23,447 nt of DNA, from IMG/VR virus record IMGVR_UViG_3300027754_000451, positions 1 to 23,447 of that record; one strand, 5' to 3'. Shown here piece after piece: positions 1 to 23,447 of the stretch. A program made the translations under genes and the position numbers. Position 1 is the stretch's first letter, and each line of letters begins with the position of its first letter. Origin of the DNA: a virus. The notes under the pieces are model-generated. The model had not been told where the DNA came from. It did no database searches and saw only the letters and a program-made list of their open reading frames with translations.

Positions 1-1
1 T

Positions 2-3000
2 AATCTAAAAACAGATCGTATCTTATATGCAAATGGTACACCGTATGTATTCACAACTAATGCAGCCGGTACTAACACACAAGTACAATTTAATAATAAC
101 AACGCATTTAGTGCTAGTGCTAACTTTACATTTAATGCCAACACTAGTACACTAGCAGTATCAAATTTAACACTTACTGGTAATGCTAATTTAGGTAATT
201 TTGCAACAGCTAACTATGTAAATGTGTCATATACACTAAACGGTAATGTTGCTAACTTCAGTGGTAATTTAACAGCCACTAATGCTAATTTAGGTAATCT
301 AGTAACAGCTAACTATATAAACGTAGCCACTCAGTTAAACGGTAATATAGCTAACTTTACTGGTAATTTAACAGCCGCAAATGCTAATTTAGGCAACTTA
401 GTAACAGCTAATTATATAAATGTAGCTACTCAACTAAACGGTAATATAGCCAACTTCAGTGGTAACTTAACAGCGGCAAACGCTAATTTAGGAAACCTAG
501 TTACTGCTAACTATGTAAATGTAGCTACTCAATTAAATGGTAATACAGCTAACTTTACTGGTAATATTACAGCCATTAATGCTAATTTAGGTAATGTAGC
601 AATAGCAAATTATTTCATTGGATCAGGTAATAACTTAAGTAATATCCAAGGTGCTAACGTTACCGGAGAAGTAGCAAACTCCAATTACTCAACCTATGCT
701 GATATTGCTTATTCAGTAGATGTTGGTAATGTAGTTGGTATAGGTAATATTGCTACTATAAATTTAGATGGTAATGTATACAATATTCTTCATGGTGATG
801 GATCATGGGCACCAGAATCAAACAATATTTCTAATGCAAATTATGCAAACTTTGCTGGTCAAGTAACAGATAGTAATCAACCAAATATTACCAGTATTGG
901 TAATCTAACAGATTTAACTGTAGGTGATCTAATATCTAATGTCGTCATAATTGACGGTAACATAAATGCAACTGGCAACATAACTGCTAATAATTTCATG
1001 GGCAGGCTTGCTAATGGTAATAGCTATGTAGAAATTCCAGTTGTAGATGGTAACATAATTCTTGTAGCTAATGGTATCACAACACTAACAGTAAGTGAAT
1101 TTGATTTAACAGTTGTCGGAAATATAGTACCAAGTGCTAATATAACATATAATTTAGGTAGCCCAACACAACGTTGGAAAGATTTATATGTTTCAGGTAA
1201 TACTATTGATTTAAATGATTCTACTATTACAGCCGGAGCAAATGGAATAACATTAACAAACCCATTAGGCGGTACTTTTACTGTGATTGGTACCGGAAAC
1301 TCTAATACTGCTAGTATTTTAAATGGTAATAGTAGCATTATAATAGATGAAAATTCAAATGTTAACATAAGTGTAGATACAGTTAGCAATGTAGTTGTAA
1401 TTTCTACTGATGGTTTGCTAGTAAATGGTAATGCAAATATTACTGCTAACTTAACCTCAGGTAATGCTGATTTAGGTAATCTAGCCATAGCTAATTATGT
1501 AAACATCGCATATGATCTTAACGGCAATATAGCTAATTTTAGTGGTAATCTAACTTCTGCTAACGCTGATTTAGGTAATCTAGCAATTGCTAATTATGTA
1601 AATATCGCATATGACCTTAATGGTAATATTGCTAATTTCAGCGGTAATTTAACTTCATTAAATGCTGGTTTAGGTAATTTAGCAATTGCTAATTATGTAA
1701 ATGTAGCATATGAAATCAATGGTAATATTGCTAACTTTAGTGGCAATTTAACAGCCGCCAACGCTAATTTAGGTAATTTAGTAATTGCTAATTTTTATAA
1801 AGGTGTATTTGATAACACCAGTTCAAGTCAAGCAAACATTACTAGTGTAGGAACATTGATTTCATTAAATGTATCCGGTGACTCTAATATAGCTAATCTT
1901 ACTGTAAATGGTAATAGTAGTTTTGGTGCTAATATCAATCTAAATACCAATTGGATCAATAATGTTGGATATCCTAATGTTCCAACAGATGCGGCAACTA
2001 AGGCATATGTTGACACAATGGTATCAAGTGGTCTTAGTTATCATCAACCAGTACTGGCAGCAACTACAACTACTTTAGCAAATGCTACAATTGGTAATAC
2101 ATCATATATTGAAATTACTCCGGGAGACGGAGTTGGTGCATACATAAGTACAGATGGTGTATTTGAGTTTATTGACGGAGCAAATGTTCAAACTGTTGGT
2201 ACACGAATTTTAGTTAAAGATGAAGCTAACGCTACATGGAATGGAGTATACACATATTCCAATACAACTGCTATTGTACGTTCTACTGATGCTGACCAAT
2301 ATGGTCCGGATAGCACAGAGATGTTAAGTGTTAATGATTTCTTCTTTACAACCGGTGGTATTATAAATGAGGGTGTTGGTTTTATTGTTGCTAGTCCACC
2401 TGGTGAAATAATATTTGGTACAAGTAATATTACATTTAGTATATTCACTACTTCACAAGTATATGATGCTGGTACTGGATTAACATTAACAGGTACTACG
2501 TTTAGTGTTAATACTACTCAACCACAAATAACACAAGTAGGTAATTTAAGTAGTTTAACAGTTACTGGTAATTCTAATTTAGGTATTGTAGGAAACGTAC
2601 ATATCGATGGTGGTGGTGCAGGGTATTTATTGGGTACAGATGGGTCTGGTAACCTATCTTGGATAAGCGGTAGTAATATCTCAGGTGTTATAGGAAATAC
2701 TATTGTATTAGGAACACCCACTGACGGTGATCTAACAACTAATGTAGCATACAATGGATGGACTACCGGTACATATGTTACTGATGGTTTAGATGATTTA
2801 AATCAAGTTAGTTTAAACATTGCTGGAAATACCTTTGTAGGTAATATTTATATTTCAGCTAATACAACATCGGGTCCTAGCCCATTGACAGTAGCGTTTA
2901 ATGGATACTATATTGGCAATCCTACTAATTATCTTTGGAATTTTGGTGACGGGACAACTAGTACAACTCGTAACCCAACAAAAACATATAGTAATACTTC

Positions 3001-5767
3001 CGGTGGACAATTTACAGTTACATTTACAGCATATAATGTTAATGGCACCTTTGGTGGCAATGTGGCTAATGGAGCAAAAGGCTCAACTGCTACATCAACT
3101 AATACAAATTACATAACATTATATACACCATTACCAATACCATCATTTACAACTACTCCAACTAGTTTAGATACTGGTAGCAATGTAACTATTACAAATA
3201 CAAGTTTATATGCTACATCATATACAATTAATTATGGCGATGGCAATACTGCTGTTAACCCAGGCAATTCTTGGACAACTAACACCCATAGATATATTAA
3301 TTCTGCTAACGTTGATGCAATATATGGAATTAATTTAACTGGAACAAATCAGACTGCTGGCAATGCACCACCGTATAGTGTAACGACAGCTAACACTAAT
3401 GTTAAAGTCTATACTCCACAAAGTCCTGCTTTCTCATCTAATTCTGTTGCAACGATTAACTATTTTGCTACATCAGGTGGTGTAATTAGTTTCAGAAATG
3501 ATACTCCAGGTAGTCCGGGTAATACTGCTAGTTTTGGCGCACAACAATTATATAACTTCCGTTGGGGAGATGGTACAGCTAATAGTAACATTAATATTCA
3601 AACAGGACTTGCTGGAAACCCAGGCGCAGCCAATATTACTCACGCATTTGCTTTGAGTTCAGTACAACAAAATGCTGCCACTACAGTAAGTTATGTAACA
3701 AATCTTTCACTATACACAGGATATAGTACTAGCCCATTCGTATCTAGTAACATTACGATTACAGTTGAGCCAGAAGTTAGAGCTAACTTTACAGGAACAG
3801 CTAACACACAAACTGATGCTACAGGATATAGTTCTAATGCTCAAGTTGGTTACCTGTATACTGACTATTTGGGTCGTGATAGAAGTTTGTTTAACTTCAG
3901 TAATGATACATCACCTAATGTATCATTTACTGGTAACTTGTTTAATTGGACGTGGGGTGATACTACAAGTAACACAGGCTTAACAAGTCGTGCTAATATT
4001 ACACACTCATATTTAAATGATTATGGATCACCAACTATTGGTGGTAAGACTGTCGCATTACAGGCAAACGGCACTCCGGGAACTACTTTACAAAGTAATA
4101 CGAATACAAAAACAAATTATATTACTATTCTAGCCAACCCAACAGCTCCTTCTAATCTCAGTAGCTACACTAATGTTACTATAGCTACAGCTAGTCAAGG
4201 TACTAGTCCGTTATTGGCTGCAGGAGCCGCTGATAACACTGGTGGAAATATATTAGCTAATGGTACAGCAGTTACCCGTGTTGCTACAACAACACCTGTA
4301 GCAACTAGTACACAGGTAACGAATGCTAACACATCACTTACAGGTACATTAACTGCTTACGTAAACAATACTTCAGCCGGTAACACATCATTCAGTACTA
4401 GTGGAAATGCTGTTGGTACATACGGTGCATTAGTAGTGTCAGCAGATAGAGATTTACACATAGCAAATGCGGCTGTTCCTACAGGATTCTATAAAGTATT
4501 CTCAGCTACAATTAGCAATACATTAGCTAGTTTGGGTAATGGTTATAATGATTTCCAATTACGTCATTCAACCTCAGGTAATACTAATACTATTGGAATG
4601 GTAAAAGATAACTTAAATTCTGCCCCAACACTAGTTACTACGAATACAGTAATGGTTACTGCCACAGCAGGCACATATAGATATATTTCCGGTATCCCTT
4701 ACTATAGTGCTACTGGATCACCGGCTATTACTGTAGCTAATTTAGAATTACAAAACTTTACAGGACAAACTTTCCGTAGTGCTGATCCATTCACAGTAGC
4801 ATCTGGTACATCATATGAAGGTTCCGGATCAGTTATATCTACACAAACTAAAACATTAGCACAAATTGATAACAGTGGAAACTCTATGTTGACTGGATCT
4901 AATGTTAAAGCTAATATTGGTATTTCAACTAACTATTCAATGGGTAATCTTAATATATTACTCAATGGTGCTGTTAATGGTGTATCAACTATAGCGGCAA
5001 ACATATTCAATGTTGTTGGTACTAGTACAACAATTCAATTGCCTACAAAAATACAAATGTATGCTGGTGCAAACTCTGGATTTAATGAACAATCTATTGC
5101 GGCTAATGTAGCAAGTAATACACAAGCTGCCATTCGTGTAGTGTTAAGTACCGCAGGCAATACTCCAGCGTTTAATGGAGCTACAAATTATTATACCAGC
5201 AATGCTTGGACAGGTGCTCAAACTATTGCAGGTACACCAGAAGCAGTTGTTAGATATGGTGTATTAAAACATTATGCTGTAGATTTATCTACTGGGTATT
5301 TACCAATTGGACCTAACTTAGCTACAGGACGATCAGGATTACAGTATTTCACGTTTGCCTTTGCTAGACTTGCTATGAATAACTTTGATGTTATATTAAC
5401 TACCGGAGCAACTGGTTTATCAGGTTTATGGATGGCTGCACCGGGAACAACAATTGATTCGACCGGTAACGTCACTCAACCGGGTTATCCTGGACCATGG
5501 AGTACAATTAACGGATGGTTAACTGGATTCCAACAATATAATGGTGCGGGTGTTCCGGGCGCAAAAAATGGCGGTACTAATACTAATGGATGTGCGTTAA
5601 CCGGAGCTGATGTGATTCCATTGAACACACAGATTTCAAACGTAAGATATACCATGACACTTGGTGAACAGAGTTCAACTTTCAGTACAGGTCAGAATAT
5701 TTTAATTAGAATTGCGTTGGCTTCTGGCCAAACTATAACTGATGTACAGATCGGAGTACAAACCTAA
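2..5767 (+). CDS. Asn-rich repeat tail-fibre/appendage protein with four PKD-like domains (5' partial)
   Basis: The frame is open from base 2 with no stop, so the gene starts upstream. The first in-frame start-like codon inside the window (GTG at 224) lies within a repeat and is not a credible start. The visible 1921 residues begin with a LYANG cassette (residues 1-50). Two blocks of 33-residue Asn-rich repeats follow (about 62-208 and 489-600), with an LGSPTQRWKDLYVSG motif between them. A phage-fibre module starting DAATKAYVD spans about 663-840, and a GGGAGYLLGTDGSGNLSW hairpin about 866-890. Four PKD-like domains occupy about 951-1380, with motifs WNFGDGT (979), NYGDGN (1077), RWGDGT (1187) and WTWGDTT (1316). 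Residues 1381-1921 form a non-repetitive C-terminal domain with a GLWMAAPGTT stretch, resembling C-termini I recall from marine T4-like phage PKD proteins. PKD folds usually mediate protein or glycan contacts, so a receptor-binding or virion-surface role is inferred. The stop overlaps the next start by one base. Confidence 0.9.
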   Translation, partial: NLKTDRILYANGTPYVFTTNAAGTNTQVQFNNNNAFSASANFTFNANTSTLAVSNLTLTGNANLGNFATANYVNVSYTLNGNVANFSGNLTATNANLGNLVTANYINVATQLNGNIANFTGNLTAANANLGNLVTANYINVATQLNGNIANFSGNLTAANANLGNLVTANYVNVATQLNGNTANFTGNITAINANLGNVAIANYFIGSGNNLSNIQGANVTGEVANSNYSTYADIAYSVDVGNVVGIGNIATINLDGNVYNILHGDGSWAPESNNISNANYANFAGQVTDSNQPNITSIGNLTDLTVGDLISNVVIIDGNINATGNITANNFMGRLANGNSYVEIPVVDGNIILVANGITTLTVSEFDLTVVGNIVPSANITYNLGSPTQRWKDLYVSGNTIDLNDSTITAGANGITLTNPLGGTFTVIGTGNSNTASILNGNSSIIIDENSNVNISVDTVSNVVVISTDGLLVNGNANITANLTSGNADLGNLAIANYVNIAYDLNGNIANFSGNLTSANADLGNLAIANYVNIAYDLNGNIANFSGNLTSLNAGLGNLAIANYVNVAYEINGNIANFSGNLTAANANLGNLVIANFYKGVFDNTSSSQANITSVGTLISLNVSGDSNIANLTVNGNSSFGANINLNTNWINNVGYPNVPTDAATKAYVDTMVSSGLSYHQPVLAATTTTLANATIGNTSYIEITPGDGVGAYISTDGVFEFIDGANVQTVGTRILVKDEANATWNGVYTYSNTTAIVRSTDADQYGPDSTEMLSVNDFFFTTGGIINEGVGFIVASPPGEIIFGTSNITFSIFTTSQVYDAGTGLTLTGTTFSVNTTQPQITQVGNLSSLTVTGNSNLGIVGNVHIDGGGAGYLLGTDGSGNLSWISGSNISGVIGNTIVLGTPTDGDLTTNVAYNGWTTGTYVTDGLDDLNQVSLNIAGNTFVGNIYISANTTSGPSPLTVAFNGYYIGNPTNYLWNFGDGTTSTTRNPTKTYSNTSGGQFTVTFTAYNVNGTFGGNVANGAKGSTATSTNTNYITLYTPLPIPSFTTTPTSLDTGSNVTITNTSLYATSYTINYGDGNTAVNPGNSWTTNTHRYINSANVDAIYGINLTGTNQTAGNAPPYSVTTANTNVKVYTPQSPAFSSNSVATINYFATSGGVISFRNDTPGSPGNTASFGAQQLYNFRWGDGTANSNINIQTGLAGNPGAANITHAFALSSVQQNAATTVSYVTNLSLYTGYSTSPFVSSNITITVEPEVRANFTGTANTQTDATGYSSNAQVGYLYTDYLGRDRSLFNFSNDTSPNVSFTGNLFNWTWGDTTSNTGLTSRANITHSYLNDYGSPTIGGKTVALQANGTPGTTLQSNTNTKTNYITILANPTAPSNLSSYTNVTIATASQGTSPLLAAGAADNTGGNILANGTAVTRVATTTPVATSTQVTNANTSLTGTLTAYVNNTSAGNTSFSTSGNAVGTYGALVVSADRDLHIANAAVPTGFYKVFSATISNTLASLGNGYNDFQLRHSTSGNTNTIGMVKDNLNSAPTLVTTNTVMVTATAGTYRYISGIPYYSATGSPAITVANLELQNFTGQTFRSADPFTVASGTSYEGSGSVISTQTKTLAQIDNSGNSMLTGSNVKANIGISTNYSMGNLNILLNGAVNGVSTIAANIFNVVGTSTTIQLPTKIQMYAGANSGFNEQSIAANVASNTQAAIRVVLSTAGNTPAFNGATNYYTSNAWTGAQTIAGTPEAVVRYGVLKHYAVDLSTGYLPIGPNLATGRSGLQYFTFAFARLAMNNFDVILTTGATGLSGLWMAAPGTTIDSTGNVTQPGYPGPWSTINGWLTGFQQYNGAGVPGAKNGGTNTNGCALTGADVIPLNTQISNVRYTMTLGEQSSTFSTGQNILIRIALASGQTITDVQIGVQT
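185..625 (+). repeat. 99-nt (33-residue) tandem repeat, block 1, in gene 1
   Basis: The marker sequence encoding (A)NLGN recurs at 185, 284, 383, 482 and 581, always exactly 99 bases apart. This gives four full units and the start of a fifth. Each unit encodes NANLGNL-(V/A)TANY-(I/V)NV-LNGN-ANF-(S/T)GN-type residues, and Asn makes up about 9 of 33 positions. Units differ mostly at third codon positions (for example GGT/GGC, AAT/AAC and CTA/TTA). The repeat is therefore kept at protein level and is not a fresh DNA duplication. Confidence 0.93.
1466..1800 (+). repeat. 99-nt tandem repeat, block 2, in gene 1
   Basis: The same 33-residue unit as the first block returns with markers at 1466, 1565, 1664 and 1763, again exactly 99 bases apart. 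Units here carry NADLGNLAIANYVNIAYDLNG-type residues, a variant closer to each other than to block 1. The block ends by running into an ANFYKGVFDNTSSSQANIT linker that is also found in genes 2, 3 and 4. Confidence 0.92.
2852..4140 (+). other. Four consecutive PKD-like domains within gene 1
   Basis: Each of four stretches of about 90-120 residues carries an aromatic-x-x-G-D motif, the hallmark of PKD/Ig-like domains. The motifs are WNFGDGT near 2936, NYGDGN near 3230, RWGDGT near 3560 and a degenerate WTWGDTT near 3947. Each is followed by a (T/I)H- or KTY-type strand and a terminal hydrophobic strand (YITLYT, NVKVYT, NITITVEP, NYITILANP). Boundaries are approximate. Domains 2-4 are diverged and carry insertions, so the first is the most certain. 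Confidence 0.75.
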
Positions 5768-5769
5768 TG
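5753..5769 (+). promoter_or_regulatory. Overlapping stop/start (TAATG) with upstream GGAG
   Basis: The gene 1 stop TAA (5765-5767) and the gene 2 start ATG (5767-5769) share one base. A GGAG lies ten bases before the ATG, inside the end of gene 1. This arrangement normally gives translational coupling, so the two proteins are probably made in linked amounts. Confidence 0.7.
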
Positions 5770-8700
5770 GCCGCAACGTTTAACGAATCACAAAAGATCG
5801 ACTATTTGTGGAAAAAGGTTGGTTACGGAGTAACTAAAACCGCTGAGGAAACAACCAAACAAGCCTTTAACGAGAGTATTCCTAGTCCGTTATTATATCG
5901 CGGCGATCTTATTTGGATGGAAAGTAATCAGATTCCATCAACTTCTCCGGCTGCTACAAGTAGTATTGTACAAGTTTATCAAGATGGTGTAGGAAGCTTT
6001 AGTCCTAGTGTAGAATGTACAGAAGACTTAACCTCTCCTGATAATCAAACATGGAAAACAAATTTAACAAATTGGGTACCAACTCAATTTGGTTCTAGTT
6101 ATCTAGTACAAGTATATGTAGCTAATACCGGAGTAACTAACCCACAAACATCAGGTACTAAATTATTCCAAGCTGGTTCCGGAACAGATGATACTTGGTT
6201 CTTTGACTACCAATCTGGTGTATTGAATTTTAATGGTACAAATATACCAGCACAAATTACAGGTGGTGTTACAGGCAAAAGCATTTATATTGTTGGTTAC
6301 CGTTATGTAGGATTAATTGGTGTAACAAATCAACCTAGTGGTAACATTAGTGGTAATACTAATATTGGTAATCTAAACTTTACTAATACTACTATTAGTA
6401 CTATAACTACAAACAGTAACATATATCTTACTCCAAATGGTACTGGAAATTTACATGTAACAACTTCACTAACAGCTAGTGGAAATATTGTTGCTAATAC
6501 GGGTGCTTTTTATATTGGTGACGGTGGATTTTTAGGAAATTTAAACACATCAGGTGTATCAAATGGTAATAGTAATGTAAGCATTCCATCATCTAATGGT
6601 AATGTTAATATTAGTGCTGTAGGTAACACTACATTAGTAGTTGCCGGAAATGGAGTAAATGTCTTTGGATATTTAACTGTAACCGGTACGTTAATAGCTG
6701 GTAATATTAATTCCAATGTATCATCTAATACAGTTACTGCAAATTCTGCAAATATATCGGGTAATCTTTATGTAGCAGATACCGCAACTATTGGTAATGT
6801 ACGTACGGATCACATCTTATACGCAAATGGTCAACCATGGGACTTACAAGAAGCCGCCGGAGCTAACACTCAGATTCAATATAATGACGGCAATACTAAC
6901 TTTGGTGCTAGTGCTAACTTTACTTTTGACCAAACAACTAACTTATTAACTGTCATTGGTAATATTAATACTACTAATGCTAATTTAGGTAATCTTGTAA
7001 CTGCTAATTATGTAAATGTATCATCTATTCTAAATGGAAATGTTGGTAACTTCAGTGGAAACTTAACTTCATTAAACGCTAACTTAGGCAATTTAGTAAT
7101 TGCTAATTTTTATAAAGGTGCATTTGATAACACTAGTTCTAATCAATCAAATATTACAACAGTTGGTAATCTAACTTTCTTAAACGTTGATGGTGTTGCT
7201 AATCTAGCTAATGCCTTAAATGTTCAAGGGGTCGCTAATTTAGCTAATACGTTAAGTGTTCAGGGTGTTGCTAACTTAGCAAATGTATTAAATGTTAATG
7301 GTAATATTAACGCAAATTCTAATATTATCGCAAATGCTAATATTACAGGTGCAAATTTAAACACACTTGGTTTAGCAAATATAGGTAACTTAGAAATTTC
7401 AGGAAAAGTAACCGGTAATTTAATCCCAACAATTGACGCAGATGGTTTAGGAAATGGATACAATTTAGGTACAGCAACATATCGTTGGAAAGATTTATTT
7501 CTAAGTGGAAATAGCGTTTACCTCGGTGAACAATCTATAACATCCAATGCTAGTGGAATTACACTAGCAAATACTACTTTTGTTACTGACCTTCAAGTAA
7601 GTAATAATGCTACAATTAACTTAGCACTTACAGGTAATACTGCTAACTTCAGTGGCAATGTAATAATGCCAAATGCTACAGTTAATTTAGAATTAACTGG
7701 TAACACAGCTAACTTTAGCGGCAATATTGTAGCATTGAATACAAATGCAGGTAACTTATTACTTGCTAACGTTGCTAATTTTGCTGTTAATTTAGTAACT
7801 AATAACGCTACTGTTAATTTAGAATTAACTGGTAACACAGCTAACTTTAGTGGTAATGTTGTAGCATTGAATACAAATGCAGGTAACTTGTTACTTGCAA
7901 ACGTTGCAAATATAAGTGGTAATTTAATTACAAACAATTCAACCATCAATTTACAGTTACAAGCAAATACTGCTAACTTTAGTGGCAACGTTCAAATGGA
8001 TAAGTGGTTAACTGTTGCTGATACTGCAAATGTGGGTAACTTACGTACCGATCATATCTTATATGCAAATGGTGTGCCATGGGACTTACAAGAAGCAGCC
8101 GGTGCAAACACAGAGATTCAATATAATGATGGTGTTGGTAACTTTGGTGCTAGTGCTAATTTCACATTTAACTACGCTACAAATCTACTAACAGTAACCG
8201 GTAACGCTAACATAGCAAGCAATCTTTATGTTGCGGATACCGCACTTATAGGTAACGTAAGAACAGACCATATCTTATATGCAAATGGTCAACCATGGGA
8301 CTTACAAGAAGCCGCCGGATCTAACACACAGATTCAATTTAATGATGGCAATACTAACTTTGGTGCAAGTGCCAACTTTACTTTTAATCAAGCTACTAAT
8401 CTATTGGATGTAGTCGGTAATGCTAACATAGCAAGCAACCTTTACGTTGCTGATACGGCACTTCTTGGTAATATGAGAACAGACCACCTGTTGTATGCAA
8501 ATGGAAGTCCATGGGATTTACAAGAAGCAGCCGGACTTGTTACATACATTCAATATAATGCTGATAACGGTGACTTTGGCGCTAGTGCTAACTTTACTTA
8601 TAATGACACTACTCAATTATTTACAATTGCTGGTAATATTAGTGCTAGTAATGCTAGTTTGGGTAATTTGGCAAGTGCTAATTACATAAACGTATTAGCT

Positions 8701-9899: not shown

Positions 9900-9907
9900 C
9901 ATAAATA
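9900..9907 (+). promoter_or_regulatory. T4-type late promoter motif (CATAAATA) before gene 3
   Basis: CATAAATA matches the T4 late promoter -10 element TATAAATA at seven of eight positions. It sits in one of only two gaps longer than 20 bases. In T4-like phages this element alone, read by the gp55-type sigma factor, defines late promoters, so no -35 box is expected. The inferred start would fall just before the AAAGGA ribosome site. The motif is short in AT-rich DNA, and its position is the main support. Confidence 0.55.
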
Positions 9908-13753: not shown

Positions 13754-13772
13754 GTATTGCTGAATACCATAT

Positions 13773-15353
13773 ATGGCAACAATTAAATGGTTTAATTCTA
13801 TAAACGGATTCTCGGTGGGCGACCAGCTCACCGAGGTTATAGATACCTCAGGTAACGTTTACACATCTAAGGTTACTTCATATATAGATGTTGATATTGT
13901 TTCTGATAATGGTAGTAAAGTTTGGACATTTGACAGTTACGGAAATATTGTATTTCCGGATACCACTACTCAAACTACAGCTTATCCAGGTACTGCCACA
14001 ACATTAAGCCTCACTGGTAATATATCAACTGGTAATGCTAATTTAGGTAATCTAACTACAAGTAATTATTTTCATGGTGTATTTGATAATACAAGTTCAA
14101 GCCAACCAAACATTACCAGTGTAGGTAATTTAAGTAATCTAACCGTAGGTAATGCTACATCTAATGTAATTATACTTGGTGGCAATATTACTGCTACGGG
14201 TACAGTATCTGCTAATAATTTTAGTGGTAACTTCAGCGGTAATATTAGTGTAGGTGGTTCCAATACGCAAGTGTTATTTAACGGTAATGGTACTATTCAA
14301 GGTAGTAATGCCTACGTATTTGATTATTCATCAAATGTATTAACACTAGCCGGTAATCTAATAGCAAATGTTGGTGTACTTTATGGTAATATCATAAATG
14401 GTAAAAATGCATTACAAGTAGGTAACACAAGTTTTACTTCTGTGCCAAACACAATAGCACAATTTACTGGTAATTTAAATAGTGCGGCACAAATAAACTT
14501 TCAAAATATCAATACCGGAGCAACATCTAGTACTGACATAGTATTGACTTCAGATAATGGTAATAGCGTAAACAACTATATCAATATGGGTATTACTGGT
14601 AGTGCATGGGACGGTACTCAAACAAATAGTTTAGGTAATGCACTAACACCCGATGACGGATATTTATATGTACGGGGTGGTAATTTAGTTATAGGAACTA
14701 GTAAAGTCCCCACGTCAGTGAAATTTGTAGTTGGAGGTTCAGGTAATGGTAACGTAGTAGCAACTATTAACAAAACCAACGTTGATGTAACGGGTGATTT
14801 AATTGCTAGTGGTAATGCTAACATTACCGGAAATATAACTTCAACTGCAGGGTTGTTAACACTAAGTACCGGCATACTAGCGGTTAGTGGTGGAGATGCT
14901 GGTATTTTTGCCGCATCAATCAATAACATTAATTTAGGGTTAGTAGCTAATATTGCAATGGGTAGTACTACAGGAAATGTGACTGCCCGAGGTAATTTGA
15001 TTGTCAATGATACGGCAACAATAACGAATTTAAAAGTTAGCGATGTTTATAGTAACAGAACCCCAATAGTTGTTACTACAAGCACCGTAATTGACAGCTT
15101 TCCGGTCATTAAGTACAGGTCAGCTAAATACACAATGAGAGTCAACAGTGATGACGGATACCAAGCTGTTGAAGTATTATTGATACATGATAATGCTAAT
15201 AGTTATGTCACCATATACGGTAGTTTATCTACAGTAGGGTTTGATATTATAGCATTATCAACGAATATACTTTCCGGAAATGTTAGAATGTTAGCCAGTA
15301 CTGGCTCAGCGAACACAACGGTTAATTTATTGGGCGTTTACGTAGCAGATTAA
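13773..15353 (+). CDS. Short Asn-rich tail-fibre/adhesin protein
   Basis: The 526-residue protein begins MATIKWFNSINGFSVGD, closely matching gene 3's head, which supports this ATG although no clear ribosome site precedes it. Residues 45-70 carry NIVFPDTTTQTTAYPG, a motif common in phage fibre proteins. Residues about 82-200 closely match a block near the end of gene 2 (NYFHGVFDNTSSSQPNITSVG ... NTQVLFN). Residues about 230-345 contain the NINTGATSSTDIV ... NYINMGITGSAW ... DDGYLYVRGGNLVIGT segment, another recurring phage-fibre unit. Residues about 427-526 form a compact C-terminal domain (SAKYTMRVNSDDGYQAVEVLLIHD ... VTIYGS) shared with gene 5. The start lies 19 bases after the gene 3 stop and the end 11 bases before gene 5. 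It reads as a short version of the same architecture, presumably a shorter fibre. Its function is inferred only from modules. Confidence 0.92.
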   Translation: MATIKWFNSINGFSVGDQLTEVIDTSGNVYTSKVTSYIDVDIVSDNGSKVWTFDSYGNIVFPDTTTQTTAYPGTATTLSLTGNISTGNANLGNLTTSNYFHGVFDNTSSSQPNITSVGNLSNLTVGNATSNVIILGGNITATGTVSANNFSGNFSGNISVGGSNTQVLFNGNGTIQGSNAYVFDYSSNVLTLAGNLIANVGVLYGNIINGKNALQVGNTSFTSVPNTIAQFTGNLNSAAQINFQNINTGATSSTDIVLTSDNGNSVNNYINMGITGSAWDGTQTNSLGNALTPDDGYLYVRGGNLVIGTSKVPTSVKFVVGGSGNGNVVATINKTNVDVTGDLIASGNANITGNITSTAGLLTLSTGILAVSGGDAGIFAASINNINLGLVANIAMGSTTGNVTARGNLIVNDTATITNLKVSDVYSNRTPIVVTTSTVIDSFPVIKYRSAKYTMRVNSDDGYQAVEVLLIHDNANSYVTIYGSLSTVGFDIIALSTNILSGNVRMLASTGSANTTVNLLGVYVAD

Positions 15354-15358: not shown

Positions 15359-15364
15359 TTAAAA

Positions 15365-18300
15365 ATGACTACAAAATATTTTAATGTAAAACAAGGTATA
15401 ACAACTGGTAATATATTACTAGATGGTATATCCGGTAATATTACAGCAAACAATGCTAACTTGGGTAATGTTGTTTCTGCTAATTTCTTCATAGGCGCTG
15501 GCAATAACTTAAGCAATATACAAGGTGCTAACGTTACCGGTAATGTAGCTAACGCTAACTTTGCTGGTTTTGTAACAGGGAACGCACAAGGTAATATTAC
15601 TTCAGTTGGTACACTAGCTAATTTAAGTGTAACAGGTACTGTAAGTGGTGGTAATTTTACTACTTCAGGTTATTCTAACACAGGTAGTCTAAATGTAACA
15701 GGATTGAGTAATTTAGGTAATGTAGGTAATGTTACAATTACCGGTGGTAGTACAAATCAATATCTAAAAACAGACGGATTGGGTAATTTAACTTGGTCAG
15801 GGATTGCAGCAGGATCTAATATTACTAATGGTAATACTAGTGTTGATATTCCAACTAGTAATGGAAATATTAACCTTACATCAAATGGAAATCTATCATT
15901 AACAGTAACTGAAACTGGCGTTAACGTTGCCGGAACATTGAATGCTACTGGTAATGCTAACACAGGTAATTTAGGTACTGGGTTTATATTTGCAACAGGC
16001 AATATTACTACAACCACTATTACTGCTAATGTAGCAAATGGTACTGCACCGTTTACTGTTAATTCAACTACGCAAGTTGCTAACTTAAATGTAGCAACAG
16101 CAGGTTTGTCAACAGCAGTAACAGGTGCCGCACAAGGTAATATTACTAGTGTTGGTACATTAACCGGTTTAAATGTCAGTTCAACTGTAACGGCGGTGGC
16201 ATTTACCGCTAATACTGGATTATTTACAGGTGATGGTTTTGGTTTATCAAATATAGCAGCTGGCAATATAATTGGAACTGTAGCAAATGCTAATTATTCA
16301 GCATATTCAGGTAATGCTAACTTTGCCAATATCGTAACAGGTGCCGCACAAGGTAATATTACTAGTGTTGGTTCATTAACCGGTTTAACTGTCAGTGGTA
16401 ACGCTAACGTCGGTAACTTAGGTACAACTGCATTGGTAGCAACCGGAACAGGTAGTTTTGGTGGTAATGTTAATATGAATAATTATAACATTACAAGTCT
16501 TGCTACACCAGTTAATGATACTGATGCGGCCACAAAAGCTTATGTTGATTCAACGGCACAAGGACTTGACCCTAAAGCATCTGTAGCATATGCAACTACA
16601 ACAAGTATTTTTGGTAGTGGTTATACTTATAATAATGGAACAAGTGGCGTTGGAGCAACAATTACTGCTAATAGTAACGGAGCATTGAGTATTGATGGGT
16701 CTACCCCGAGTATTGGGATGCGAGTATTGATAAAGAATGAAGTTGGTGCATTTGTTAATAATACAACAGAATCAGCCGCGTTCAACGGTATATATCTTGT
16801 AACAGTAGTTGGTTCAGGAGCAGCCGCTTTTGTATTAACACGTACAACTGATTTTGATATTGGTACTGAAATGGCAGGTGCATTTACCTTTGTTGAACAA
16901 GGTACGTATAACGCAGATACAGGTTGGGTTTGTACTGCAAATCCTCCAGTAACAGTTGGTACAACGCAAATTACATGGACACAATTCTCTAGCGCAGGCG
17001 CATACACGGCTGGTACAGGATTGTATTTAAACGGTAATCAATTTAATATTGCGAATACAGCAGTTACCCCTGCTCCATACGGTGGCGGAGATAGTGTAGC
17101 TACATTTACAGTTAATCAACAAGGCCAATTAACAGCCGCAAGCAATGTATCAATTACTGCTAATGCCGCTAACTTAACTGGCACTACTTTAAATGCAACC
17201 ATTATTAATTCTAGTTTAACAAGTGTCGGTACGTTGGGTAATCTATCAGTGTCATATGATATTACTAGTGGTAATGTTTATGCTAATAGTGGCACGGTAA
17301 AGGCTACATCATTAACTGGTACATTAACAACTAATGCTCAACCAAACGTTACTTCAGTTGGTACACTAACAAGCTTAGAGGTAACAGGTACAGCAAATGT
17401 AGGTAACGTAGTTACTACTGGTGTAGCTAATATAGGAAACCTTGCAGTAACAGGACTAAGTAATTTAGGTAATGTAGGTAACGTTATAATTACTGGTGGT
17501 ACTGCTAATTATGTATTACAAACTAATGGTTCAGGTAATTTAAGTTGGGTAGTACAAGCAGGTTCATCTGCAGCCAGCAACATTGCTAATGGAAATAGTA
17601 ATGTTAATATCCCGGCTGCTAATGGTAATATTAATCTTACCGCTAATAATAATACTTCAATGGTGGTTACACCAACTGGTGCTAACGTATCTGGTACTTT
17701 TAATGTTACTGGTAATTTAATTGCAGGTAACATCACCGGTGTTAATAATGTTAGTGCTAACACATTCACTGGTTCATTAACAACTGCGACACAAGGTAAT
17801 ATTACTAGCGTTGGTAGTTTAACTGGATTAACAGTTAGTAATGCATCAGGTACAGTTAATTTTACAACTACTGCTAACGTCACATTAGGCGCAGTAGGTA
17901 ATTTACATATTTCAGGTGGTAATACAAGCGAATATCTAAAAACTGATGGATCAGGTAATCTTTCTTGGGCTCCAATTGAAGAAACAAGTATAACTAACGG
18001 TAATAGTAATGTAAGTATTCCAACAGCTAACGGTAATGTAAATATTACTGCGGTAGGCAATACAACAATGGTTGTTACTGGTACAGGTGCTAATATCTTT
18101 GGTTATGCTAATATTACCGGCAACGTAGATGCGGCATATTTTATTGGTAATGGTATTGCTATAAGCAACATTGCTGGTGGTAATGTTTCTGGTACTGTTG
18201 CTAACGCAACATATGCGGTTAGTGCAGGTAGTGCTCAAACAGCAGTAGCAGTAACAGGTGCTTCACAAGGTAATATTACAAGTCTTGGTAATTTAACAAG

Positions 18301-18751
18301 TTTAAATGTACTTGGTAATATATCTGGTGGAAACATATACACTGCTGGTACTGCTAATGTAGGTAATTTAATAGTAACCGGTACAACAGCTTTTGGTAAT
18401 TTAACTACTAACTATATTGCTCTTAATGGTGGTTTAACAAGCAATCGTTCAAATGTATCAGTAACTACTAATACCCCAATTGACTTATTTCAATCAAGTA
18501 CATTCAGAACAGCAAAATATATTATTAGTGCATCAGGTGATGATGGATATCAATCAGTTGAAACATTGTTAATACATGATGGTACTACAGCTTATATCAC
18601 AATTTATGGTAGCATTTGCAGTAATAATACAGCAGATATTATTGAACTATCAGGTAATGTTAATAATATATCTGGAAATGTTGGTTTATTTGCAACTGGA
18701 ACTAGTGCAAACTTAAAAGTCAATATAGTCGGCACATACATTAACACTTAA
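15365..18751 (+). CDS. Asn-rich modular tail-fibre/adhesin protein
   Basis: The 1128-residue protein has the head MTTKYFNVKQGITTGNI, nearly the same as gene 6. The body contains NNLSNIQGANVTGNVAN (also in gene 1) and repeated AAQGNITSVG(T/S)L units. GGxxxxYLxT(D/N)GxGNLxW hairpins lie near nt 15735, 17490 and 17910. (S/T)NGN(S/T)xVxIPxxNGN cassettes follow the hairpins. A DAATKAYVD ... GLDPKASV module runs from residue 387 to about 550. The C-terminal domain (about 1026-1128) has TAKYIISASGDDGYQSVETLLIHD and ITIYGS, clearly homologous to the end of gene 4. An isolated Cys occurs in the module (TGWVCTA) and one in the C-terminal domain (YGSICSNN), which is unusual in this Cys-poor set. I infer a virion fibre or adhesin. 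The shared head and tip with neighbouring genes suggest equivalent placement with a variable shaft. Receptor and partners are unknown. Confidence 0.92.
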   Translation: MTTKYFNVKQGITTGNILLDGISGNITANNANLGNVVSANFFIGAGNNLSNIQGANVTGNVANANFAGFVTGNAQGNITSVGTLANLSVTGTVSGGNFTTSGYSNTGSLNVTGLSNLGNVGNVTITGGSTNQYLKTDGLGNLTWSGIAAGSNITNGNTSVDIPTSNGNINLTSNGNLSLTVTETGVNVAGTLNATGNANTGNLGTGFIFATGNITTTTITANVANGTAPFTVNSTTQVANLNVATAGLSTAVTGAAQGNITSVGTLTGLNVSSTVTAVAFTANTGLFTGDGFGLSNIAAGNIIGTVANANYSAYSGNANFANIVTGAAQGNITSVGSLTGLTVSGNANVGNLGTTALVATGTGSFGGNVNMNNYNITSLATPVNDTDAATKAYVDSTAQGLDPKASVAYATTTSIFGSGYTYNNGTSGVGATITANSNGALSIDGSTPSIGMRVLIKNEVGAFVNNTTESAAFNGIYLVTVVGSGAAAFVLTRTTDFDIGTEMAGAFTFVEQGTYNADTGWVCTANPPVTVGTTQITWTQFSSAGAYTAGTGLYLNGNQFNIANTAVTPAPYGGGDSVATFTVNQQGQLTAASNVSITANAANLTGTTLNATIINSSLTSVGTLGNLSVSYDITSGNVYANSGTVKATSLTGTLTTNAQPNVTSVGTLTSLEVTGTANVGNVVTTGVANIGNLAVTGLSNLGNVGNVIITGGTANYVLQTNGSGNLSWVVQAGSSAASNIANGNSNVNIPAANGNINLTANNNTSMVVTPTGANVSGTFNVTGNLIAGNITGVNNVSANTFTGSLTTATQGNITSVGSLTGLTVSNASGTVNFTTTANVTLGAVGNLHISGGNTSEYLKTDGSGNLSWAPIEETSITNGNSNVSIPTANGNVNITAVGNTTMVVTGTGANIFGYANITGNVDAAYFIGNGIAISNIAGGNVSGTVANATYAVSAGSAQTAVAVTGASQGNITSLGNLTSLNVLGNISGGNIYTAGTANVGNLIVTGTTAFGNLTTNYIALNGGLTSNRSNVSVTTNTPIDLFQSSTFRTAKYIISASGDDGYQSVETLLIHDGTTAYITIYGSICSNNTADIIELSGNVNNISGNVGLFATGTSANLKVNIVGTYINT

Positions 18752-18762
18752 TCAAATTTGTC

Positions 18763-18777
18763 CCCCTTAATAAGGGG
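18763..18777 (+). terminator. Possible short hairpin terminator after gene 5
   Basis: CCCCTT and AAGGGG form a 6-bp stem around an AAT loop, eleven bases after the gene 5 stop. Only a mixed A/T run and no clean T-tract follows, so intrinsic termination would be weak. Its last G is also the first base of the late-promoter-like motif. Confidence 0.4.
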
Positions 18778-18784
18778 ATAAATA
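18777..18784 (+). promoter_or_regulatory. T4-type late promoter motif (GATAAATA) before gene 6
   Basis: GATAAATA matches the T4 late element TATAAATA at seven of eight positions, in the longest gap of the window (65 bases). A TATAAT hexamer also occurs at 18788-18793, but no convincing -35 box lies at the right distance. The late-promoter reading is therefore preferred. It would start a transcript for genes 6 and 7. Confidence 0.5.
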
Positions 18785-18816
18785 TATTATAATTCGTAAA
18801 CAGGGAATATGGAACT

Positions 18817-20151
18817 GTGTCATTTAAATATTTTAACGTAAAGAACGGCCTAACGACTGGAAATATAGTATTGCATTCAGCAAATGCACATGTACAGGCA
18901 AATTACTTTCTTGGAAATATTAGTGTCACAAGCTCTGCAAATTTAGGTAATGTTAGTAATGTAAAAATTACAGGCGGAACCGCCGGCTATGTATTAAAAA
19001 CAGACGGTACAGGTAATCTGTCATGGACTGCTCAAGCAGGCGGTGGCGGAGCAGTTTACTTTCAAAGTAATGTAGATAATGTTGTTGCCGGCTCTACACT
19101 TGCAGTAAATGTAGATTATGCCAATGCTAGTTATCCTGGTGGACTATTTACATTAGAACAATTGGGCCCGGTTGAATTTACCACTACTGATATTTGGGCC
19201 GTTACTAGTACCACTAGTAAAAATGCATATGCAAATCTCATTGCAAATACAGCAAATGTGTCTAATATTAGATTGATACTATCTTTAGCTAATGCTACAT
19301 TTAATGTACAATCAACAGATACAATTACTATAGGATCTTCTACTATAACAGGAGCCAATCTAACAGGTTTGGGCATTTCTGGTACAGGTGGAACATACAC
19401 TATTGTAAATACATTGGTAGGCGACGCAATACAAACAAATTCTTCTACCGCTGTTAGTGCAAATTTAACCACATCCCGTGGCGTAAAAACGACAAATGGA
19501 ACAACACTAACAACTATTGCGGCAGTGCCATTCAATGTAACATCATTGACTGGATCTTTTTCTTCAAGCTCAGTTCCTTTTTGGACACCATCACAAACAT
19601 TTAATTGGAGTGCGGCATTAACATCAGGCGCAACTGTTAATAGCGGTAACGTAACATATAGTAATGTTTCAAATAGTGTAAGCGGGTCATTAACCTCTGT
19701 CGGAGCTACTAGTGGAACTAGTGCATCATTAGATAGCACATTAACATATACAATTAGTTCAAGTGATTATACAGGTGCCGGTGGTTTTGGCGCAGGTACA
19801 CGAACTATTCCTAGTACTGTTACAGGTACTGTTAGTCCTGCAACATTATATTATCCGTTATTCTATACAACTACAGGTAGTAGTGCTAATCCAAACTTCA
19901 CTACTAGTAGTACTAGAAATTCAAATAACTATGCTACAGGCCAAGGAGCAAATACAACGGCAACAACTACTAACTATTTGTGGATAGGAACACCTACTTC
20001 AACTGCTAGGTCATTTGGATTTACCTTTTTAGGCTCATTTGTAAGTGTTACACCGGACGTTACTTACAATAGTCAAACTATATCAGGGCAGACATATAAT
20101 GTATATGGATTCACAAATTATTCTGCAATAACATTCATTTATACGGTATAA
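18817..20151 (+). CDS. Small fibre/adhesin protein with non-repetitive Ser/Thr-rich C-terminal domain
   Basis: The 444-residue protein uses GTG at 18817. This is supported by the resulting head MSFKYFNVKNGLTTGNI, matching gene 5, by an in-frame stop at 18790, and by the lack of an in-frame ATG between them. The ATG at 18809 is in another frame and stops after ten codons. AGGGA at 18802-18806 may serve as ribosome site. Residues about 45-75 hold one GGTAGYVLKTDGTGNLSW hairpin. From about residue 80 the protein leaves the Asn repeat pattern. It becomes a Ser/Thr/Gly-rich beta-type region (VAGSTLAVNVDYANASYPGG, later FWTPSQTFNW, YYPLFYTT and NYLWIGTPTSTARSFGFTF), ending YNVYGFTNYSAITFIYTV. I do not recognise this domain with certainty. 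Of the complete genes here it has the shortest shaft, so it may be a tip or adhesin subunit. That is inference. Confidence 0.88.
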   Translation: MSFKYFNVKNGLTTGNIVLHSANAHVQANYFLGNISVTSSANLGNVSNVKITGGTAGYVLKTDGTGNLSWTAQAGGGGAVYFQSNVDNVVAGSTLAVNVDYANASYPGGLFTLEQLGPVEFTTTDIWAVTSTTSKNAYANLIANTANVSNIRLILSLANATFNVQSTDTITIGSSTITGANLTGLGISGTGGTYTIVNTLVGDAIQTNSSTAVSANLTTSRGVKTTNGTTLTTIAAVPFNVTSLTGSFSSSSVPFWTPSQTFNWSAALTSGATVNSGNVTYSNVSNSVSGSLTSVGATSGTSASLDSTLTYTISSSDYTGAGGFGAGTRTIPSTVTGTVSPATLYYPLFYTTTGSSANPNFTTSSTRNSNNYATGQGANTTATTTNYLWIGTPTSTARSFGFTFLGSFVSVTPDVTYNSQTISGQTYNVYGFTNYSAITFIYTV

Positions 20152-20152
20152 C

Positions 20153-23100
20153 ATGGCAGCACTAACATTCCCAACCCCCACACAACTTAAAAATATAGGT
20201 GAGCCAACTGCCAATTCCGATGCGGCAACTAAATATTATGTTGATATACAAGCAAGTGGTGGCAATGCAAATTATGCTAACTTTGCAGGAACTGTAACTA
20301 CTAATGCTCAGCCAAACATTACTTCAGTTGGCACATTAGTAAATTTAAATGTTAGTGGTACTGTTACTGCTGTAGCATTTACTGCTAACACCGGTATCTT
20401 TACTGGTAATGGATCTGGACTATCAAACATTGCTGGTGCTAACGTTACAGGTACTGTAGCTAATGCAACATATGCTGTATCGGCAGGTAGTGCAACAACA
20501 GCAGTTACCGTAACAGGTGCAGCGCAAGGCAACATTACAAGTGTAGGTACGTTAACAGATTTATCAGTATCTGGTAATGGTGTTATTGGTGGCAACTTAA
20601 CAGTTAACGGCACACTAACGTACATTAATTCTACTACATTATCAATTAGTGATCCAATCATTAATTTACAAACAGGACCAAATGGTGCGGCACCAGTTGC
20701 TAACAGTGGCAAAGATGTAGGTACAGCATTAAATTATTACGATACAAGCGCAAAGATTGCTTGGATGGGCTGGGATGTAAGTAATGCAGAAATAGCTTTT
20801 GGATCTAATGTTGGTATATCATCAGAAGTAGTAACATTTACTTCATTGGCCAACATTCGTTCTGGCAATGCACAATTAGGTAACAATGTATCAGCTAATT
20901 TCTTTACTGGTAACGGTTCGTTATTAACAGGTGTTACTACAGCTAGTATATCAAACGGAAATAGTAATGTAAATATTCCATTAGCTAACGGTAATATAAA
21001 CTTTAGTGCTGAAGGCAATGCCAATATATTAGTTGTTACCGGCACTGGCGCTAATATTACAGGTAATCTTACTACAACTAACATCATTACAGGTAATGGT
21101 TCTGGCGGCAATATTATTAACGCTAACGTCATCTCAGCTAATACATTTATTGCTAGTGGTAATGTCACTGCCGGTAATGCTAATTTAGGTAATTTAGCTA
21201 TAGCTAATTTCTTTAGTGGAGCTGGTAATAACTTAAGTAATATAACAGCTAGTAATATTACTGGTCAAGTAGGTAATAGTTTAGTTTCTGGCACCGTGTA
21301 TACAAACGCACAACCAAACATTACAAGTCTTGGTAATTTAACAGGGTTAACTGTAAGTAATGTATCCGGTATAGTTAACTTTACAACTACTGCTAATGTG
21401 ACATTGGGCGCGGTAGCTAACGTACATATCACTGGTGGTACTAGTGGTTATGTATTAAAAACAGATGGTACAGGTAATCTAAGTTGGATTGCTCCAGGTA
21501 GCGGAAGTAATAGTATCAGTAATGGTAATAGTAATGTCAGTATCCCCACAGCTAATGGCAATGTTAATATTAGTGCAGTTGGCAATGCTAATGTAGTAGT
21601 CATAACCGGCACAGGCGCTAATATATCCGGCACAGCAAACATAACGGGTAATGTTAATGCCCCGTACTTCATTGGTAACGGATATTACTTAACCGGGGTA
21701 GACACAAGTCCAGCAAATATATCAAATGGTAATAGTCAAGTAAACGTACCTGCCGCAAATGGCAACATAACTGTAACTGTTTCAGGAGTAGCTAACACAG
21801 TTGTGTTCAGTAATGTCGGTGTTGATGTAGCCGGCAATATAACTACGGGTAATATTCAAATTACAGGAAATGCTAATGCTACATATTTTGTAGGTAATGG
21901 TGCATTCTTAACAGGTGTCGCTACAAACCCAGCAAACATATCAAATGGAACCAGTAATGTAGAAGTTTCATTAAATGGTAATGTAACCACAAGTGTTAAC
22001 GGCAATGCTAATATACTAACCGTTACTGCCACAGGTATAGTTGTCACAGGTAATGCTACAATTGGTACTGGAACAGGTGGTAATCTTTCTGGTGCTAATA
22101 TAGTAACTGCAAATTTAATTGATGCAGGCAATGTTAATTCTTCAGGTAATGTTAATGCTACATATTTTGTAGGTAATGGTGCATTCTTAACTGGTGTAGC
22201 TACAAACCCAGCAAATATATCAAATGGAACTAGTAATGTAGAAGTTTCATTAAATGGTAATGTAACCACAAGTGTTAATGGTAATGCCAACATTTTAGTT
22301 GTTACTGGCACAGGTATAGTTGTAACCGGAAATGCTACAATTGGTACTGGTACAGGCGGTAATCTTTCCGGTGTTAATATAGTAACGTCAAATCTAATTG
22401 ATGCAGGTAATGTTAATTCAGCAGGTAATGTTAATGCTACATATTTTGTAGGTAATGGTTTTTACTTAACTGGTGTAGATACAAGCCCATCAAATATTAC
22501 AAATGGAAATAGTAATGTAGAAGTAACATTGAATAGTAATATTGTAATGTCGGTTGCGGGCAATGCTAACATATTAACTGTAACAGGTACAGGTATAAAT
22601 GTTACAGGCAATGCTATTATTGGTGCTGGTACAGGTGGTAACATATCTGGTGCTAATATCATAACTGCTAATACATTTACAGCACTAACTTCCGTAGACT
22701 TCACATCTACTTCTAATGCAAGTTTGGGAGCAGTTGGAAATGTAAAAATTACCGGCGGTACTAGTGGTTATGTATTACGCACAGACGGTGCAGGTAATTT
22801 ATCTTGGATTGCTCCAGGTAGCGGAAGCACTGGTATTAGTAATGGTAATAGTAATATAAATATACCGGCAGCTAATGGCAATGTTAATATTAGTGCAGTT
22901 GGCAATGCTAATGTAATTGTAGTAACTGGCACAGGCGCTAATATATCCGGCACTGCAAATATAACAGGTAATGTTAGTGCTCCCTACTTTATTGGTAATG
23001 GTTTTTACTTAACCGGGGTAGATACAAGCCCTGCAAATATATCAAATGGCAATAGTCAAATAAATGTACCTACTGCAAACGGTAATATCGCTGTAACTGT

Positions 23101-23447
23101 TGCGGGAGTAGGCAACACTGTTGTGTTTAGTAATGTTGGTGTTAATGTAGCTGGTTATCTTACTTCAACTGGTAACGTAACTGCAGGTAACATTATAGGT
23201 ATAATTGCTGCCGGATCTAATACAATTACTACTACCGGTAATGCTAACGTTGGTAATTTAGGTTTTGGTACTGGTGTTATAACTGGTACAGGTAATATAA
23301 CTGCCGGTAGTTTTATTGGTGCACTGGCAAATGGTAATAGTAATGTAAATATTCCAAGTAGTAATGGCAATGTTAATATTACAGCAGTAGGCAATACTAC
23401 TGCGGTGATTACTGGAACTGGTGCAAATATCTTTGGATATGCTAATG
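20153..23447 (+). CDS. Long Asn-rich repeat fibre protein (3' partial)
   Basis: The ATG lies one base after the gene 6 stop, and the frame stays open to the window end (1098 codons visible). The head MAALTFPTPTQLKNIGEPTAN runs straight into DAATKYYVD, the start motif of the phage-fibre module of genes 1, 3 and 5. The GLDPKASV part is missing, and the KxFNxxxG head of genes 3-6 is also absent. Residues about 141-230 (NLTVNGTLTYINSTTLSISD ... YYDTSAKIAWMGWD) match a pattern I recall from T4-like phage fibres. The rest is Asn-rich cassette: two GGTSGYVLxTDGxGNLSW hairpins (near nt 21434 and 22754), several NGNSxVxxPxANGN units, tandem 93-residue repeats and a long displaced duplication. No clear ribosome site precedes it, so re-initiation from gene 6 is likely. 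The C-terminal tip lies outside the window. Confidence 0.9.
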   Translation, partial: MAALTFPTPTQLKNIGEPTANSDAATKYYVDIQASGGNANYANFAGTVTTNAQPNITSVGTLVNLNVSGTVTAVAFTANTGIFTGNGSGLSNIAGANVTGTVANATYAVSAGSATTAVTVTGAAQGNITSVGTLTDLSVSGNGVIGGNLTVNGTLTYINSTTLSISDPIINLQTGPNGAAPVANSGKDVGTALNYYDTSAKIAWMGWDVSNAEIAFGSNVGISSEVVTFTSLANIRSGNAQLGNNVSANFFTGNGSLLTGVTTASISNGNSNVNIPLANGNINFSAEGNANILVVTGTGANITGNLTTTNIITGNGSGGNIINANVISANTFIASGNVTAGNANLGNLAIANFFSGAGNNLSNITASNITGQVGNSLVSGTVYTNAQPNITSLGNLTGLTVSNVSGIVNFTTTANVTLGAVANVHITGGTSGYVLKTDGTGNLSWIAPGSGSNSISNGNSNVSIPTANGNVNISAVGNANVVVITGTGANISGTANITGNVNAPYFIGNGYYLTGVDTSPANISNGNSQVNVPAANGNITVTVSGVANTVVFSNVGVDVAGNITTGNIQITGNANATYFVGNGAFLTGVATNPANISNGTSNVEVSLNGNVTTSVNGNANILTVTATGIVVTGNATIGTGTGGNLSGANIVTANLIDAGNVNSSGNVNATYFVGNGAFLTGVATNPANISNGTSNVEVSLNGNVTTSVNGNANILVVTGTGIVVTGNATIGTGTGGNLSGVNIVTSNLIDAGNVNSAGNVNATYFVGNGFYLTGVDTSPSNITNGNSNVEVTLNSNIVMSVAGNANILTVTGTGINVTGNAIIGAGTGGNISGANIITANTFTALTSVDFTSTSNASLGAVGNVKITGGTSGYVLRTDGAGNLSWIAPGSGSTGISNGNSNINIPAANGNVNISAVGNANVIVVTGTGANISGTANITGNVSAPYFIGNGFYLTGVDTSPANISNGNSQINVPTANGNIAVTVAGVGNTVVFSNVGVNVAGYLTSTGNVTAGNIIGIIAAGSNTITTTGNANVGNLGFGTGVITGTGNITAGSFIGALANGNSNVNIPSSNGNVNITAVGNTTAVITGTGANIFGYAN
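21385..21838 (+). repeat. Displaced duplication in gene 7, copy A (copy B at 22705-23158)
   Basis: About 450 bases here recur exactly 1320 bases downstream without length change. Matching points include the GGTSGYVL hairpin (21434/22754), GTGANISG (21611/22931), SNGNSQ(V/I)NVP (21722/23042) and the VVFSNVGV segment (21801/23121). The block encodes LGAVxNVxI through VVFSNVGV(D/N)VAG. The 279-nt tandem repeats lie between the two copies. Confidence 0.9.
21878..22460 (+). repeat. 279-nt (93-residue) tandem repeat in gene 7
   Basis: The ATYFVGNG-encoding mark recurs at 21878, 22157 and 22436, exactly 279 bases apart. Two full units are nearly identical in protein (NPANISNGTSNVEVSLNGN, VTTSVNGNANIL, TGIVVTGNATIGTGTGGNLSG). 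The third is diverged after its first few residues and continues as DTSPSNITNGNSNVEVTL. DNA identity between units 1 and 2 is high, with scattered mostly silent changes. Confidence 0.93.
22705..23158 (+). repeat. Displaced duplication in gene 7, copy B
   Basis: This is the second copy of the roughly 150-residue block at 21385-21838, offset by exactly 1320 bases. Changes relative to copy A are mostly synonymous or conservative (for example LKTDGTG to LRTDGAG, and NVNAPYF to NVSAPYF). After about 23158 the two copies diverge into different cassettes. Confidence 0.9.

Follow-up and report, generated by a model that had tools for sequence, protein, structure and literature searches.

What does a virus gain from a long run of fibre genes with nothing else between them? 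The question is raised by IMG/VR record IMGVR_UViG_3300027754_000451, whose entire 23,447 bases (hereafter the window; its ends are the contig ends) are taken up by seven large Asn-rich fibre genes. The initial annotation offered two explanations, several different fibres per virion or a store of alternative receptor-binding proteins. Our analyses favour the former. The window probably belongs to a late-gene block that encodes the surface fibres of virions of an uncultured jumbo myovirus, a freshwater member of the T4 superfamily; these fibres would form a set on one particle.

The seven-gene block and its counterparts

Seven co-directional open reading frames (ORFs) on the + strand, g1 to g7, tile the window (Table 1), with intergenic gaps from g1 to g7 of -1, 46, 19, 11, 65 and 1 nt. 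No tRNA was found in the window, and ten of its longest antisense ORFs had no PHROG match. The encoded proteins contain 9.5–16.8% Asn, 11.6–18.2% Thr and 0.5–1.9% Lys, compared with 7.3%, 8.1% and 5.3% respectively for the non-array genes of a relative, contig G001; they are also Gly-rich. In-frame tandem repeats detected with Tandem Repeats Finder (TRF) have units of 99, 132, 216 and 279 nt, that is 33, 44, 72 and 93 residues. The uninterrupted run of seven Asn-rich fibre genes described in the initial annotation is thus borne out, as is the proposed sharing of cassettes among them, the shared modules and the in-frame repeats both being real. Composition and repeats dominate whole-length BLAST among the seven proteins; orthology was assigned by N-termini, gene order and DNA alignment and never by such BLAST matches alone.

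A 13,315-nt overlap between contig L007 and the window contains 2 mismatches, and L007 reaches 1005 nt further upstream. There, g1 starts 554 nt before window base 1, which gives a full length of about 2106 aa beginning MAVDKFNSFGGYSVG, and its start is preceded by a late promoter of T4 type. Because L007 holds a divergent HNH-like ORF upstream of g1, the array begins at g1. This Cys-rich 121-aa ORF is conserved at the array start in all three genomes (L007:1-370, G001:C1:79643-80008 and G008:C1:58810-59175); it possibly encodes a homing-type endonuclease that could favour recombination there.

A scan with the g2 N-terminus matched 80 contigs, of which several are large. The counterpart of the array in contig G001 (137 kb) comprises 18 co-directional fibre-like genes; together they encode 16,731 residues and take up 51 kb, or 37% of the contig. 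The array size first reported therefore holds for the window, and the complete array is bigger. The order and N-termini of g1–g6 recur in G001 and in a third genome, G008, and the junction between the g6 tip and g7 is found in six other loci. Together with the agreement of L007, these data show that the seven-gene block does not result from chance or assembly error.

N-termini, tips and junctions

The first 35 residues of g1–g6 are 77–100% identical within a slot between genomes and 6–54% identical between slots. In contrast to these conserved starts, g6 carries three unrelated C-terminal parts in the window, G001 and G008. The g6 tip of the window is found in other contigs on at least two other kinds of N-terminus (MALLRSGTRIYGN... 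and MAIIQISKIQHRTG...), always in C-terminal position. DNA alignment shows g6 of G008 to be an in-frame fusion: its first portion corresponds to the 5' part of G001 g6 and the rest to the 3' part of a 1410-aa gene located about 6.5 kb downstream of g6. Absent is the intervening stretch of G001, made up of the g6 tip, a 1613-aa gene and the beginning of the 1410-aa gene. The difference may reflect a deletion or an expansion, in either direction. At the sequence level, N-termini are slot-specific whereas distal parts and tips are exchanged, and the G008 gene provides direct evidence of a shaft-to-shaft fusion in the array.

Two junctions between consecutive genes are also conserved. The N-terminal domain of g2 (g2N) lies immediately downstream of the C-terminal domain of g1 (g1C) in 80/80 loci, with a 1-nt overlap in 75, a sample that is biased towards the pair and includes many close relatives because the loci were found with g2N. 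phiCbK-type phages, Salicola SCTP-2 and Phosso carry homologues of g1C and g2N together; the pair is a marker conserved from phiCbK-type siphophages to jumbo myoviruses. Similarly, a g7-type N-terminus follows the g6 tip in all six other loci checked. The partners at each junction would either bind each other, as in multi-subunit fibres, or co-travel through crossovers in the flanking shafts.

Two further arrangements were seen around g1C and g2N. In another branch (L037, L041, L047 and relatives), the gene after g2 often overlaps it by 4 or 34 nt and encodes a 104–291-aa protein starting MITLFHAIQSLVPGAEVSVG, a different partner at this position. Many phages among the CcrSC, CcrBL9 and Brevundimonas records carry the g1C and g2N homologues in two copies.

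Expression and display of the fibres

The late-promoter motif of T4-like cyanophages, NATAAATA (PMC2984593), occurs four times on the coding strand of the window and the L007 upstream region. Three of these sites lie 35, 29 and 40 nt before g1, g3 and g6 (those before g3 and g6, CATAAATA and GATAAATA, are placed in Table 1), and G001 and G008 carry them too, at 35, 29 and 40–41 nt. We read this arrangement as three putative late transcription units, g1-g2, g3-g4-g5 and g6-g7. Scans for sigma-70 promoters and terminators gave no excess over shuffles. Codon comparison with G001 and G008 yielded ratios of nonsynonymous to synonymous substitution rates (dN/dS) of 0.09–0.27 at dS 0.42–0.87 for g1–g6, values biased down by the use of aligned stretches of at least 60% identity only and resting on about 67 qualifying codons for g6. 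Whole-length identity to the orthologues is 85% for g4, 75% for g5 and 77% for g3, and neither G001 nor G008 has an orthologue of g7. Purifying selection acts on the six genes that could be compared.

The surroundings of the array were read in G001. On its g1 side lie a T4-type major capsid protein gene (phrog_138), more head genes and the portal gene (phrog_213), with baseplate hub (phrog_13211) and wedge (phrog_10646/219) genes further out; the opposite flank holds ORFs resembling ribonucleotide reductase subunits (by eye on the sequence, no search made). The initial annotation had proposed to extend the contig towards baseplate and tail genes and had named bacterial chromosomal flanks as one finding that would refute its reading; the flanks reached through G001 are those of a T4-type phage. 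By synteny, the linkage to T4-type portal, capsid and baseplate genes would carry over to the window. The G001 capsid protein is 66–67% identical to those of PA5oct and Vibrio phage 2.275.O, and its portal is closest to that of Atu_ph07 (51% identity), a phage described as close to RaK2-like phages (PMC6102473). By these two proteins, the virus appears nearest to jumbo myoviruses of the RaK2/PA5oct/Atu_ph07 type.

Matches of the array proteins themselves point to tail fibres. The phrog_30390 module of g5 is 41–54% identical to tail fibres of Methylophilales phage Melnitz, Pelagibacter phage Mosig and cyanophage S-CAM9, and the g3/g5 modules match annotated Kyanoviridae tail fibres as well as a chain of solved structure, 9efk_AE, that bears the name orf22; a literature search for PDB entry 9efk turned up no paper. 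In the G001 array, one gene encodes six Laminin_G_3 lectin domains, others end in glycine-rich domains (Gly_rich_2 tips), and a 277-residue segment of one matches a 'baseplate wedge tail fiber protein connector'. Nothing in the phage collection matched the g6 protein or the N-terminus of g5. Among the seven window proteins, no Pfam or PHROG family of enzymatic beta-helix bodies was detected, nor any sequence match to CBA120/gp10-like N-terminal docking domains. Searches of solved structures with the g1C and g2N sequences returned weak, unconvincing matches only. Pfam matches to Phage_T4_Ndd (g7) and to DUF7770, KH_N4BP1 and Herpes_ORF30 (G001) were repeat-driven or below cut-off and were rejected.

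Taken together, the flanking genes of G001 and the tail-fibre matches support the phage origin and fibre identity put forward in the initial annotation. We propose that each gene would encode one elongated fibre, in which a short slot-specific N-terminus attaches to a neighbouring fibre or to the particle itself, the middle is a long, repetitive, Asn-rich and presumably beta-structured shaft, and the C-terminal tip binds a surface receptor. Transcribed late from at least three T4-type promoters (g1-g2, g3-g5 and g6-g7), all the fibres would be built together into the same particle as a set of different members, most likely at the baseplate. Shaft repeats common to the genes would offer homology for in-frame recombination, which could lengthen or shorten the array and put new tips, or blocks made of a tip and the next N-terminus, on existing docks. 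Tips swapped on kept attachment ends would in this way probably let one particle carry many different grappling arms. A stronger version can be advanced only tentatively: one virion would display a very large set of different fibres, all non-enzymatic and numbering at least seven and perhaps 17 or more, some of them connected end to end by g1C-g2N and g6 tip-g7N, and the array would recombine by shaft-to-shaft crossovers that move a tip together with the next dock.

Several observations weigh against this proposal. AlphaFold monomer models are of low confidence, with a mean predicted local distance difference test (pLDDT) score of 43.5 for g2N (35 alignment rows) and 49.7 for g1C (38 rows); a fold search with the g1C model gave no match at E <= 0.001 and was not used. 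The dN/dS values are biased downwards, as stated above, and the window itself contains no tail-fibre chaperone or baseplate gene. Finally, the g1C-g2N pair of phiCbK-type siphophages adjoins the major capsid gene and a candidate head-filament gene. For this last reason attachment to the tail, assumed in the initial annotation, is rated here as likely and not as established, with moderate confidence.

The same neighbourhood suggests that the fibres could sit on the head or neck, as whiskers or head filaments making first contact with, for example, a flagellum. About 6 kb separate the major capsid gene from the start of the G001 block; in phiCbK the distance between the pair and the major capsid gene is about 1.8 kb, and gp76, the proposed head filament (PMC3556154), comes two genes after the pair; and Atu_ph07, which bears g2N homologues, has whiskers that are primarily capsid-associated (PMC6102473). 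However, the pair of Sinorhizobium phage Phosso is about 160 kb from the capsid gene and adjoins a 'minor tail protein', and the Atu_ph07 g2N genes stand beside tail fibre gp327, away from capsid gene gp215. As the connector segment in G001 and the matches to annotated tail fibres also argue for the tail, we regard a head or neck location as rather unlikely.

In a store of alternative receptor-binding proteins, one or few would be in use at once, switched by recombination or regulation. Close relatives do differ in tips and array length, and the shaft repeats supply ample homology for recombination. Yet each gene has its own intact frame and a conserved slot-specific N-terminus, the late promoters are conserved and six genes are under purifying selection. 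Moreover, cassettes lacking a promoter or a start were not observed, nor was a reverse transcriptase of a diversity-generating retroelement, PF00078 exceeding the cut-off in none of eight related contigs, which are fragments. Since the intact ORFs, the conserved late promoters, the dN/dS values and the lack of such a reverse transcriptase favour many different fibres per virion, the first of the two options originally offered fits better, and a store seems very unlikely. That the proteins are secreted or cell-surface adhesins made during infection, or bacterial host genes, deserves almost no credence: PKD (window) and lectin (G001) domains do occur in bacterial adhesins as well, but the flanking genes are those of a phage head and baseplate, the promoters ahead of the block are of the T4 late type and its modules match phage tail fibres.

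Table 1. Positions of genes, domains, repeats and promoter-like elements in the window.
Feature	Position	Strand	Basis and remarks
g1 fibre gene	2..5767	+	ORF call; 5' open, 1921 aa in window; orthologues G001_73213_2110, G008_52138_2191
33-residue (99-nt) shaft tandem repeats in g1	181..1793 (181-613 + 1432-1793)	+	TRF
PKD (Ig-like) domain in g1	2846..3049	+	Pfam PF00801/PF18911 above cut-off
g1C conserved C-terminal domain (phrog_8578)	4127..5764	+	PHROG match; always C-terminal
g2 fibre gene	5767..9882	+	ORF call; 1371 aa; 1-nt overlap with g1 stop
g2N conserved N-terminal domain (phrog_9417)	5767..6339	+	PHROG match
132-nt and 216-nt in-frame tandem repeats, g2 shaft	7675..8604	+	TRF
CATAAATA, T4-type late promoter-like element	9900..9907	+	29 nt before g3; same distance in G001, G008
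g3 fibre gene	9929..13753	+	ORF call; 1274 aa
phrog_30390 module in g3	12344..12877	+	PHROG match
g4 fibre gene	13773..15353	+	ORF call; 526 aa
g4 C-terminal domain, homologous to that of g5	15006..15350	+	Sequence comparison; C-terminal in 20/20 carrier proteins
g5 fibre gene	15365..18751	+	ORF call; 1128 aa
AATKAYVD / phrog_30390 module in g5	16469..17191	+	PHROG/sequence matches; common to annotated tail fibres and PDB chain 9efk_AE
g5 C-terminal domain, homologous to that of g4	18431..18742	+	Sequence comparison; weak match to cyanophage tail fibres
GATAAATA, T4-type late promoter-like element	18777..18784	+	40 nt before g6; 40-41 nt in G008, G001
g6 fibre gene, exchanged tip	18817..20151	+	ORF call; 444 aa, GTG start
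g6C tip, 320 aa	19189..20148	+	Always C-terminal; on at least 2 other N-terminal families elsewhere
g7 fibre gene	20153..23446	+	ORF call; 3' open, at least 1098 aa; N-terminus MAALTFPTPTQLKN..AATKYYVD
279-nt (93-residue) tandem repeats, g7 shaft	21864..22672	+	TRF

Other genes of G001 deserve mention. Three tandem paralogues of 306–313 aa (MPIxFEGATISGGISIEPY...; G001:C1:81004-83856) lie between the capsid gene and the array, and the one tested had no PHROG match; a 5842-aa ORF (G001:C1:112606-130134) directly follows the baseplate wedge gene. An IscU-like iron-sulphur scaffold gene (G001:C1:18775-19164; L090), 79–85% identical to those of Comamonadaceae and other Burkholderiales, adjoins an ORF that reads as rubrerythrin-like (G001:C1:17997-18461), and the two are possible auxiliary metabolic genes. 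A Limnohabitans phage matches one module of the array proteins. A freshwater Burkholderiales host is plausible, on hints that come from the relative G001 and not from the window; they point to fresh water instead of the marine setting implied earlier.

Comparison with known systems

If the proposal holds, uncultured freshwater jumbo phages devote more than a third of a 137-kb contig to interchangeable surface fibres. Comparison of three close arrays suggests a testable rule, in which docks stay, tips move and crossovers fall in the repetitive shafts, and which bears on how phages gain and lose hosts.

Among the closest known arrangements is that of RaK2 and phiK64-1 (Alcyoneusvirus), in which a run of different tail-fibre genes, gp526-gp534 (nine in RaK2), encodes proteins whose conserved N-termini build one complex (PMC10253068). 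Both cases involve a jumbo myovirus with a run of different fibre genes. The RaK2 and phiK64-1 fibres have enzymatic beta-helix and CBA120-type N-terminal domains; ours gave no Pfam or PHROG match to such enzymes and have Asn-rich repeat shafts and, in the relative, recognisable tips that are lectin- or glycine-rich. phiKp24 has fourteen predicted tail-fibre proteins, many of them in the run gp294-gp313 (PMC9700779); compared by description and not by sequence, it resembles our array in carrying many fibre proteins in one phage and differs in that they are depolymerase fibres.

Other phages share parts of the array. Kyanoviridae loci (Melnitz, Mosig, S-CAM9) contain the homologous AATKAYVD module and have tail-fibre genes in or near structural genes, but with about 3-5 annotated tail-fibre genes per locus, often adjoined by enzyme genes, as against at least seven here and 18 in G001. 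The adjacent gp73-gp74 of phiCbK-type Dolichocephalovirinae are g1C and g2N homologues with about 29-37% identity; these are siphophages with a proposed head filament downstream, and no comparable array was seen in them. In Atu_ph07, gp324-gp325 are two g2N homologues (33% identity) beside tail fibre gp327, and no g1C match was found; they belong to a cluster (CDS 284-329) that includes many virion proteins identified by mass spectrometry (PMC6102473). The part of the 'Moraphages' report consulted (PMC12619734) yielded no link to the lineage of the window.

No all-phage survey underlies this comparison, and we make no claim to the largest array. Arrays of 9-14 fibre proteins are already known in RaK2 and phiKp24. 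The array described here differs, as judged from the genes, in being Asn-rich and non-depolymerase, in its greater size in G001 and in the direct evidence it offers of a fusion between shafts.

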